Assembly: GCF_004634245.1 (NCBI RefSeq) | Contig: NZ_SJTF01000005.1 | Location: forward strand, 62,001 to 126,000 | Length of the DNA stretch: 64,000 bases | Source: Flavobacterium foetidum | GTDB lineage: Bacteria; Bacteroidota; Bacteroidia; Flavobacteriales; Flavobacteriaceae | Direction: 5' to 3' | Part shown: in pieces, positions 57,861 through 60,430 of the stretch | How positions within the stretch are numbered: the first letter of the stretch is position 1 | Layout of the letters: every line of letters begins with the position of its first letter | Position numbers and translations under genes: made by a program | The notes under the pieces: generated by a model | Database searches by the model: none | Told to the model about the DNA's origin: nothing | Seen by the model: the letters and a program-made list of their open reading frames with translations, nothing else

Positions 57861-57925
57861 GCTAGCGCGAGCGTCTCGCTCGTGAACGCAAAGCTAAAGG
57901 GCACGAGCGAGACGCTCGCGCCAGC
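57861..57925. repeat. GC-rich perfect inverted repeat (REP-like hairpin)
   Basis: Left arm GCGCGAGCGTCTCGCTCGTG (57865-57884) and right arm CACGAGCGAGACGCTCGCGC (57902-57921) are perfect 20-bp reverse complements with a 17-nt loop. Outer GCT/AGC bases extend the stem after one mismatch. GC content is far above the surroundings. It lies 15 bp after the ATPase stop, so it may terminate or protect that transcript. Confidence 0.85.
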
Positions 57926-58513: not shown

Positions 58514-58534
58514 TTACAGTATAAGGCGCAGTTT

Positions 58535-59172
58535 GTCATTTCGACCGAAGGGAGAAATCGCACTAGAAATTCCGCAAAGTATATCGCCAATCTTTGTGGT
58601 TACGAGTGTGATTTGCTTCGCCTATTCGCTATCGCTCGAGTCTCGTTCCTCGAAATGACATACTGGACGAACTGACGGAATTTTGTCATTTCGACCGAAG
58701 GGAGAAATCACACTAGAAACTCCGCAAAGTATGTTACCAATCTTTGGCGATTCTCGAGTGTGATTTCTCCTTACGTCGAAATGACATATTGCACAAACTT
58801 ACGTAACTTCTACCGAAGGGAGAAATCACACTAGAAACTCCGCAAAGTATATCGCCAATCTTTGGCGATTCTCGAGTGCGATTTCTCCTTACGTCGAAAT
58901 GACATATTGCACGAACTGACGTAGTTTCGACCGAAGGGAGAAATCACACTAGAAACTCCACAAAGTACGTCGCCAATCTTTTTGGTTACGAGTGTGATTT
59001 GCTTCGCCTATTCGCTATCGCTCGAGTCTCGTTCCTCGAAATGACATACTGGACGAACTGATGGAATTTTGTCAATTCGACGTAAGGAGAAATCACACTA
59101 GAAATTCCGCAAAGCATGTCGCCAATCTTTGTCGATATGCGCGTGCGATTTCTCCCTTCGGTCGAAATGACA
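58535..59172. repeat. Array of five palindromic ~100-125 bp repeat units
   Basis: Units start near 58535, 58685, 58808, 58925 and 59071. Most open with GTCATTTCGACCGAAGGGAG or a variant, pass through CACACTAGAAACTCCGCAAA and a CCAATCTTTG centre, and close with (G)TCGAAATGACA, so each unit is an imperfect inverted repeat. Spacers of about 22-25 bp between units are themselves similar (TACTGGACGAACTGACGG type). Two sub-types exist: short (100 bp, ending in CTCCTTACGTCGAAATGACA) and long (125 bp, with CTTCGCCTATTCGCTATCGC inserted). Confidence 0.9.
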
Positions 59173-59212
59173 AACTATAAAGAAATATGTATATTCGTAC
59201 AAAAAAAAGAAA

Positions 59213-59530
59213 ATGCTAAATCCACAAATTGGCTTTCATAGCTATTATGTTTACATTATAACAAATGAACATCGCTCTTCCTTTTATATTGGAGTTACTA
59301 ATAATTTAAAAAAAAGACTTGCAAAACATCAGGAAAACATCGACTTAAATATTAGCAGTTTTGCTGCAAAATATAATATTCGGTTTTTAGTTTATTACGA
59401 AAAATTCACATGGATACAGGAAGCGATTGCACGAGAAAAAGAATTGAAAAAATGGCGAAGAGATAAAAAAATTGAATTGATCAGAAGTTTTAATGAAAAT
59501 TTTGAGTTTCTAAACTTTCATTTTGAATGA
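59213..59530 (+). CDS. GIY-YIG nuclease-domain protein embedded in the repeat array
   Basis: 105 residues, single-domain GIY-YIG nuclease of the YhbQ/UPF0213 type: YVYIITN (12-18) and FYIGVTNNLKKRLAKH (24-39) supply the GIY and YIG strands and the conserved Arg (R35). The conserved catalytic Glu lies in AIAREKELKKWRR (E75 or E77). It has no signal peptide. It lies between repeat units (five upstream, two downstream), and the start codon is 41 bp after the end of unit 5. Such genes recur beside this kind of repeat in Flavobacterium as far as I recall, so it may be linked to the repeats' spread (inference). Confidence 0.85.
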   Translation: MLNPQIGFHSYYVYIITNEHRSSFYIGVTNNLKKRLAKHQENIDLNISSFAAKYNIRFLVYYEKFTWIQEAIAREKELKKWRRDKKIELIRSFNENFEFLNFHFE

Positions 59531-59536
59531 GTTTTT

Positions 59537-59768
59537 TGTCAAATCTTTGTCGATTCCCGAGTGTGATTTGCTTCGCCTATTCGCTATCGCTCGAGTTTAG
59601 TTCCTCCGAAATGACAGACTGGGCGAACTGACGGAGTTTTGTCATTTCGACGTAAGGAGAAATCACACTAGAAATTCCGCAAAGTATATCGCCAATCTTT
59701 GTCGATATACGCATGTGATTTGCTTCGCCTATTCGCTATCGCTCGGGTCTCCCTTCGGTCGAAATGAC
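59537..59768. repeat. Two further units of the palindromic repeat array
   Basis: A partial unit (59537-59615, lacking the left arm) and a full long-type unit (59641-59768, GTCATTTCGACGTAAGG to GGTCGAAATGAC) continue the array on the far side of the GIY-YIG gene. A decayed copy (CTTTGTCGAGCTAC ... TTGAAATGACA) is seen near 60017-60088. Confidence 0.85.
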
Positions 59769-59822
59769 AAACTGCGCGGAAAAACATGAAAAACTGCTCG
59801 ACAATGATCTTTAAAACATAGC

Positions 59823-59959
59823 CTCTGGTTTCAACCAGAGAAACGCAAGATGTATCCTCATTTTAGTTTAAAAAATTCAATTGCCTCCAGCTTTAGCTGG
59901 AGATCCGCTTGATTTATATAAAAATGGCTTTAGCCAAAATGCGCATTTTGGCTAAAGCC
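59823..59959. repeat. Cluster of REP-like hairpins
   Basis: Three palindromes in 140 bp: CTCTGGTTTCAACCAGAG (59823-59840), CTCCAGCTTTAGCTGGAG (59885-59902) and a perfect 34-bp palindrome at 59926-59959 (arms GGCTTTAGCCAAAATGC / GCATTTTGGCTAAAGCC). The CTTTAGC core shared by the last two suggests a common REP-like family. A weaker CCCTAGC..CTAAGGG hairpin follows at about 59983-60003. No coding frame. Confidence 0.8.
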
Positions 59960-60430
59960 TTGTTTTTATGAACATCTTTAATCCCCTAGCTAAAACTAAG
60001 GGCTATTCATTGCCAAGCTTTGTCGAGCTACTGATGACGATTTACTTTGTCTTTTCACTATCAATCGGATTTCTTGCTTGAAATGACAAACTCAAGATAC
60101 TCTTTCTCCGTCAAATGTTCCCACGAAACGTCGCGCAATGTCTTTTACTTTGCGCTTTTTTTGCGTCTTAGAAATTGTAAATATGAAAGTCTTACCGTCT
60201 TTTTATTATTAGTCTTGTATTAACTTGATTTATTGAAACCAGAAAAACATTACAATAAAAATGGTTTTAAAGTCATAGACATTATGAATGTGCGATTTTT
60301 CAATTATATTTGTTTTAAAATGTCGCAAATCAGACATTTGCGCAGCGCTTGGTACTCTTGTCTCAACCTTTAATCATACTATTAATAAGTTATTTTAAGA
60401 ATTAGCAATGTTTAATAAATAGCAAACAAC
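59960..60430. other. Gene-free stretch with decayed repeats
   Basis: Holds a decayed array unit (about 60017-60088), a minus-strand coding fragment LRDVSWEHLTEKEYLEF (about 60090-60145) and a hairpin CGCAAAT-N5-ATTTGCG (60324-60342). The remaining sequence is not recognised. Confidence 0.5.

Follow-up and report, generated by a model that had tools for sequence, protein, structure and literature searches.

What is a small, stand-alone GIY-YIG endonuclease gene doing inside an array of palindromic repeats? The question is raised by a stretch of 64,000 nucleotides from Flavobacterium foetidum (contig NZ_SJTF01000005.1, positions 62,001 to 126,000), which we call the window and whose genome comprises 28 contigs and 5.1 Mb. 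At 58535-60092 of the window, seven palindromic units and one degraded copy surround an intact GIY-YIG gene (59213..59530, + strand; 105 amino acids). Our best reading of the comparative data is that this Slx1/UPF0213-type nuclease is the cognate enzyme that maintains and spreads the CGTC/TGTC superfamily of repetitive extragenic palindromic (REP) sequences, and we put the probability of this at roughly 70%. Such a system would be analogous to that of the REP-associated tyrosine transposases (RAYT), yet unrelated to it. Its two components, the REP superfamily and the nuclease family, have already been described; their pairing as a system would be new.

The array units are REP doublets, that is, pairs of tagged, covarying hairpins that are dispersed over the genome. 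Intact unit ends in the window carry a TGTC tag and the units read GTC-AT...AT-C, each half-unit being built of GTC, ATTTCGA...GAGAAAT and a final C. The half-unit pattern GTCATTTCGACN{0,12}GAGAAATC had 87 exact matches in the genome and the reversed-pattern control had none; 56 of these matches formed 28 pairs of + and - copies with starts 63-133 bp apart. Covariation was scored in 90 loci (L007-L036, L073-L121 and L276-L286, each context counted once) with all 23-mers of the form GTCAT...GA.{10}ATC, a pattern that leaves the variable stem positions free. The three variable stem positions were complementary in 131 of 135 half-units, compared with 45.9 expected if the two sides were independent; the half-units comprise 33 distinct sequences and are related copies, so that they should not be counted as 135 independent events. 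Five stem types occurred (TCC/GGA, TTC/GAA, CCT/AGG, CTC/GAG and TCT/AGA). We conclude from this covariation that the half-unit is a tagged hairpin. Folded alone, a half-unit from the window is only weakly stable (-2.6 kcal/mol, z -0.7). Many REPs lie in intergenic regions, and G240 has as many as 283 copies dispersed over its genome. Genomes differ at orthologous intergenic sites: at one of these, a TTCGA-type doublet is found in G000 and G125, a CCTGA-type doublet occupies the same position in G196, and G134 and G172 have no doublet; at a second site, compared in five genomes, we found two doublet types, one collapsed remnant and one absence. The orientation of half-units in G258 was heavily skewed (17 forward, 53 reverse), and its locus L081 contains a run of half-units on one strand, unlike the usual inverted doublets.

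The original prediction had described seven inverted-repeat units of two sub-types around the gene. The count and the two types hold, with the corrections that some tags are degraded and that one of the seven is a half unit abutting the gene. With the boundaries that we set, short units measure 101 bp and long units 125-128 bp, the latter with an additional stretch in the right arm, and neighbouring units are separated by spacers of 17 or 25 bp (the gene excluded). All units are given on the + strand. Five precede the gene: a long REP doublet of 125 bp, similar to the known REPIN type (58535..58659; fold z -4.0), a short one of 101 bp with two intact tags (58685..58785; z -9.5), a short one with a degraded left tag and 92% identity to the second (58803..58903), a long one with a degraded left tag (58921..59045), and a short one that is the nearest unit upstream of the gene (59071..59171; z -5.1). 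Near the 3' end of the gene lies unit 6, the right half only of a doublet (59541..59615), followed by a long doublet of 128 bp (59641..59768; z -3.8) and by a degraded remnant, the eighth unit, at about 60009..60092. The z-values refer to single-strand folds, each of which was more stable than 200 shuffles. Part of the array evidently arose by block duplication, as judged from a block of 163 nucleotides starting at 58925 that is 94% identical to the block at 58539. The left end of the array (58526..58555) forms a perfect 30-bp inverted repeat with its right end (59748..59777); it consists of the outer arm GCGCAGTTT, the tag GTC and the REP, so that the terminal repeat continues past the REP tag into GCGCAGTTT/AAACTGCGC. 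A search of the window with Rfam at the gathering threshold returned no matches.

The check proposed with the original prediction, whether GIY-YIG genes of this family adjoin such units more often than by chance, came out in its favour well beyond the genus. Homologues (E <= 0.001) were present in 120 of 150 genus genomes and 76 of 120 family genomes. From the matches listed we took 40 previously unseen loci, 20 from the genus and 20 from the family, one per genome in rank order, skipping matches near contig ends. The unit motif lay within 300 bp of the gene in 17 of the 20 unseen genus loci, on both sides in 12, and its density fell from 4.0 and 5.75 per kb in the two 100-bp bins nearest the gene to 0.01-0.05 per kb beyond 1 kb. 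The search of the genome and the genus proposed along with the original prediction thus found the unit in both. In the genus locus set L073-L121, 45 of 49 GIY-YIG loci had the motif within 300 bp and 32 had it on both sides. To be independent of the motif, we aligned the left 300 bp of each locus locally with the reverse complement of the right 300 bp and used windows of the same geometry from the region as the control. The inverted flanks scored above all control windows in 14/20 genus and 13/20 family loci, and several family flanks contained REPs of different sequence and the same build, e.g. GTCATTCCGCACTTGATGCGGAATCCA.

A protein search of a plasmid collection gave 31 records, mainly from Rhizobium, Sphingobium, Sinorhizobium and Shinella, with single or few records from Azospirillum, Neisseria, Aeromonas, Planktothrix and others; after near-duplicates had been left out, 14 of the 31 entered the flank test and 12 of these beat every control window. 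Four of the "plasmid" records (L144, L148, L152 and L153) look like mislabelled chromosomes, with sizes of 2.2-4.9 Mb and, in L144, lpx genes. For a named genome collection we analyzed the best 80 loci, a sample that leans towards the query alignment and includes many metagenome-assembled genomes, possibly misbinned. Judged by their titles, the records comprise alpha-, beta-, gamma- and deltaproteobacteria, Myxococcota, Patescibacteria, an Anaerolineae bacterium, Scalindua (Planctomycetota), Omnitrophota, Ignavibacteria and Bacteroidetes. Five loci had short flanks; 57 of the other 75 beat all control windows, and strict GTCA-hairpins stood on both sides of the gene in 41/75 loci versus 8/3173 control windows. 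Compared with open reading frames (ORFs) of the same loci, 41 of the 74 nuclease loci tested (out of the 80) had strict REPs on both sides versus 6 of 343 other ORFs (2 of 81 small ones). Where there was one strict REP per side, the tags pointed outward in 15 of 18 loci, and CGTC or TGTC tags occurred at many flanks in other phyla. Positive members fell into at least eight phylum-level groups (table read by eye); the Myxococcota locus L193 was negative. Gene and REPs therefore co-occur across many phyla, far above controls.

The pairing extends to classes of REP. In the genus, two main classes, AATC-ACAY and AATC-TYCR, are distinguished by the bases 3' of the half-unit; for five of 50 loci (L074, L088, L104, L110 and L111) no class could be scored. 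One nuclease clade had 15 scorable loci (L101, L106-109, L112-121), each of them TYC-like if the spacer of L114, which reads CTCG, is counted as TYC. The remaining scorable loci were ACA in 28 of 30 cases, L094 and L096 being so only in part or not at all. On a likelihood tree of 46 proteins, from which class-less loci and truncated proteins (L098, L118) were excluded and whose bootstrap had not settled, the REP class changed 3 times versus 13.1 times in shuffles (0/500 as low); two of these three changes are L094 and L096, which were labelled TYC with spacers TCAT/TCAA. Both clade-class pairs occur together in G134, G168 and G233, so host ancestry does not account for the matching. Nuclease clades thus match REP spacer classes, within single genomes too.

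REP numbers mostly follow the matching nuclease clade, with exceptions. For this count over 150 genomes, clades were assigned from the nuclease matches listed (>=125 bits, difference >=3 bits), and the results below hold for these matches. Median numbers of ACA and TYC REPs were 7.5 and 0.5 in genomes with clade I only (n=24), 5 and 23 with clade II only (n=20), 75 and 38.5 with both clades (n=8), and 0 and 0 with neither (n=98). Without phylogenetic correction, p was 2e-15 for TYC (clade II only versus neither) and 3e-13 for ACA (clade I only versus neither). Five genomes with many GTC REPs and no close nuclease among the matches listed (G222, G255, G198, G218 and G250) would be natural cases in which to see whether REPs freeze and then decay once the enzyme is lost.

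Orthologous sites with and without the gene were found in four genera, Azospirillum, Sphingobium, Shinella and Novosphingobium. In Azospirillum lipoferum 4B, sufB and sufC of the suf operon are separated by the gene and a doublet on either side of it. A further 11 Azospirillum records, next in rank among the matches listed, covered 84-86% of the query, which is what a missing insert would give, and three that we fetched had 87-129 bp at the suf site and no gene. The REP-gene-REP arrangement lies between fnrL and a regulator in Sphingobium, where the whole stretch was matched in seven listed records (two fetched); four other records, all fetched, had no gene at the fnrL site. One of these, TomTYG64, has a single perfect palindrome, GTCACCCCGGGTCAAGCCCGGGGTGAC, in which the outer halves of the two REPs (as in TomTYG73) are joined at a common 8-mer. 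A close variant of this palindrome occurs in TomTYG74, and the other two gene-less records have no palindrome. Because TomTYG64 and TomTYG74 keep the palindrome, gene-bearing and gene-less forms can occupy one site. Shinella and Novosphingobium each provided one comparable gene-less record at about 80% identity, and the Novosphingobium and Rhizobium neighbours allowed only partial empty-site comparisons. The comparison for empty sites proposed with the original prediction turned up related records that lack the gene at orthologous sites, mostly along with the REPs. In Sphingobium sp. TomTYG73 (L163), the nuclease frame appears broken part-way and the flanking REPs are intact.

The protein of the window is a single-domain, Slx1/UPF0213-type GIY-YIG protein with conserved catalytic residues and hence a putative nuclease. 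It matched the Pfam GIY-YIG profile with E = 1.4e-17, and T5orf172 and TIGR01453 weakly; no Y1_Tnp match and no second domain were found. PADLOC gave only marginal matches. Residues Y14, Y25, G27, T29, R35, H39, E63, E75, K79, W81, K86 and N94 (own numbering) were invariant in both 25-sequence alignments, and dN/dS against nine relatives was 0.037-0.117, i.e. the gene is under strong purifying selection. The predicted structure (mean local confidence, pLDDT, 85.5) had the UPF0213 protein 1zg2 as its top match (E 6e-4, template modelling score, TM, 0.47), followed by Slx1-Slx4 entries (E 0.02 and above, TM about 0.5) and UvrC with weak E-values; the sequence profile search matched 1zg2, 1ywl and, weakly, UvrC. 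Slx1 is a structure-specific endonuclease (PMC1564403), so a hairpin substrate would fit. With the UPF0213 and prokaryotic Slx1-like proteins the window protein shares the minimal single-domain fold and the sequence family; the difference is that the part of PMC1564403 available describes methyltransferase neighbourhoods and no link to REPs. The genome contains two further short GIY-YIG genes (L002 on C28 and L003 on C27) without flanking units. No unit motif lay within 1.5 kb of its other GIY-YIG matches L002-L006 (L003 being cut by the contig end), and L002, L003, L005 and L006 had motif-free flank scores of 20-25 and no strict REP. Beside L084 (G240:C45:75590-76028), the full nuclease gene is accompanied by two additional partial copies of its last 47 codons, as if the gene end and the REP had been duplicated together. 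In a Planktothrix agardhii plasmid (L142), the GIY-YIG gene has an MmeI-type restriction gene on one side and drmA, the DISARM helicase gene, on the other.

How might such a nuclease keep and spread GTC REPs, much as RAYT transposases presumably keep and spread those with a GTAG tag? We propose that the locus is a REP-plus-nuclease element whose basic unit is REP, gene and inverted REP with tags mostly outward, and that the dispersed doublets of about 100 bp would be its gene-less forms. The protein would bind the REP hairpin, as a single strand or an extruded cruciform, and cut it at or near the GTC tag; of the steps proposed here we are most confident of this one. Cuts at the two outer tags could then free or open a doublet or a gene-bearing element, which is less certain. 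Least certain is the last step, in which the DNA might be joined at a new intergenic site by host repair or replication (template switching, fold-back priming). GIY-YIG enzymes hydrolyse DNA with water and are not known to form a covalent DNA intermediate, which would leave the joining to the host; joining by host repair would also fit the fact that no target duplication was seen and the palindrome that runs past the tag (GCGCAGTTT...AAACTGCGC). We give about even odds to a further-reaching version, namely that REP, GIY-YIG gene and inverted REP form a self-sufficient mobile element of roughly 0.4-0.6 kb, among the smallest autonomous ones, with the nuclease as its sole protein and joining at new sites left to host repair. 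It would constitute a class of its own beside the DDE, HUH, tyrosine and serine enzymes, occur in at least eight phylum-level groups and be the source of the CGTC REPs, including Neisseria dRS3 and the REPs of Bradyrhizobium and Flavobacterium.

Several observations weigh against the nuclease as the enzyme of the GTC REPs. A role in spreading, resolving or excising the repeats, as originally proposed, is an inference, since no cleavage, excision or transposition was observed, and the cutting activity of the protein is a prediction. The window's own motif was found in only 2 of the 20 family loci, because distant subfamilies have REPs of other sequence, and the motif-free test took its place. 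That test in turn was failed by 18 of 75 named loci, 8 of them with strict REPs on both sides and 3 with none. The sites examined, whose empty alleles had diverged, showed no clean target-site duplication, and isolated doublet insertions with clean empty sites came to a few, diverged cases, again without target duplication. Two of the four gene-less Sphingobium records keep a REP palindrome, so gene and REPs are not always together. Orthologous neighbourhoods of the gene are common to several species, so frequent jumping is not evident. The genome-level correlation takes no account of shared ancestry or genome size. More than 5 REPs were found in 8 of the 98 genus genomes without a close nuclease among the matches listed; their ACA+TYC counts are 65+78 (G222), 19+53 (G255), 27+11 (G198), 0+17 (G250), 1+14 (G218), 8+1 (G163), 8+0 (G190) and 5+1 (G229). 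Classes are also mismatched in G181 (clade II only; 19 ACA, 0 TYC), G221 (clade II only; 74 ACA), G196 (clade I only; 52 TYC) and the window's genome, which has 29 TYC and no clade II gene. Loss of the enzyme or cross-mobilisation must be assumed for these genomes.

The alternative that survives best, and that we nonetheless regard as unlikely, is that the nuclease guards the host: a structure-selective, Slx1-like repair enzyme would remove or resolve REP hairpins and cruciforms, the REPs would come from replication errors, and the gene would stay near them through regulation by local hairpins or through co-evolution. The nearest folds, UPF0213 and Slx1, agree with this, as do the strong purifying selection and the loci often shared by several species, and a role in double-strand break repair had been predicted for prokaryotic members (PMC1564403). 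A guardian would need neither an inverted REP pair around its gene nor a clade-matched spacer class, and the genomes show the opposite of what a remover would leave, REPs being many where the nuclease is present and few or none in most genomes where the matches listed contain none.

Even less probable is a selfish gene of the homing type, whose nuclease would cut alleles lacking the insertion so that repair copies the gene together with its REPs, the doublets being by-products or target marks. GIY-YIG is indeed a homing-endonuclease fold, as the Pfam and weak TIGR01453 matches recall, and the allelic presence and absence with conserved neighbours in Azospirillum and Sphingobium resembles that of free-standing GIY-YIG homing endonucleases of the T4 Seg type, which are likewise selfish single nuclease genes. 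These, to our knowledge, have neither tagged hairpin ends nor dispersed gene-less copies; here, a single domain of 105 amino acids is encoded in an intergenic array and not in an intron or intein, it has no NUMOD-type DNA-binding domain, and the window gave no Rfam intron match. Homing would also leave unexplained the high numbers of dispersed copies, the conserved GTC tag and the clade-matched spacer classes.

RAYT proteins, which are HUH (Y1) transposases, are encoded in the same genomes and might move the GTC REPs, with the GIY-YIG gene as a passenger. Six Y1_Tnp matches were found in the window's genome, and 68 of 101 genus genomes searched have one. However, none of 34 Y1_Tnp loci (of 35, 34 were tested) had the unit motif within 1 kb, compared with 45/49 GIY-YIG loci within 300 bp, and a passenger would not carry clade-matched REP classes. 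We therefore consider this mobiliser very improbable. Inverted flanks of other sequence stood at 11/34 Y1_Tnp loci. Mere coincidence, with REPs and gene both piling up in tolerant intergenic regions, might fit the many intergenic REPs and a gene presence that differs between species, and it is the least credible explanation in view of the ORF comparison above, the tag orientation and the class matching.

The data thus support the original suggestion of a partnership like that of REP and RAYT with a different class of enzyme. As in the REPtron of RAYT, one small gene stands between inverted tagged hairpins, doublets are dispersed, and REP classes are paired with enzyme lineages. The differences are in the enzyme and the tag, HUH/Y1 and GTAG for RAYT versus GIY-YIG and GTC here, and the chemistry must differ as well. 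A mobile system that relies on a stand-alone GIY-YIG nuclease of the Slx1 type is not known to us. Since the arrangement is REPtron-like, yet has neither HUH enzyme nor GTAG tag, shows none of the homing-gene features tested and has no known counterpart, we regard it as categorically new. No paper linking GIY-YIG genes with REPs was recognised in searches of the open literature; subscription papers and preprints were outside this scope, and prior notice is possible.

Di Nocera, De Gregorio and Rocco (2013) describe CGTC REPs apparently without a dedicated transposase, with a CGTC or TGTC tag, a stem starting A-T, often a CCA tail, and mostly as dimers, in Bradyrhizobium, C. crescentus, A. lipoferum, S. 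meliloti, Neisseria (dRS3), Micavibrio and G. forsetii (PMC3733652). The window units agree with this in their TGTC tag, A-T paired stem start and high-copy doublets of opposite orientation, and the nuclease flanks in Neisseria (dRS3), Sinorhizobium, Bradyrhizobium, Azospirillum, Caulobacter and Micavibrio fit the description. Many proteobacterial flanks have a stem of 8-9 bp, a loop of 4-5 nucleotides and a CCA tail; the Flavobacterium-type units differ in a weaker stem and in the absence of the CCA tail after it. A further difference from the 2013 description is the GIY-YIG gene that stands between the REPs here. A superfamily left without an enzyme in 2013 thus has a candidate from an unexpected enzyme class, which makes an open question testable. 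If the reading is true, it would assign a function to a nuclease family that is widespread and little characterised, and provide a second, independently evolved pairing of an enzyme with REP hairpins, comparable with RAYT.

Two further palindromes lie near the array in the window. At 57861-57925 there is a nearly perfect 24-bp palindrome (GCTAGCGCGAGCGTCTCGCTCGTG...), unrelated to the array units; its word recurs near the GIY-YIG locus of G172 (L076, about 2018-2048), and it therefore probably belongs to another dispersed repeat family. A palindrome at 59913-59972 has the core ATGGCTTTAGCCAAA, which is shared with the inverted sequences on either side of a Y1 transposase gene in G175 (L266); a RAYT-type REP may therefore adjoin the GIY-YIG array.
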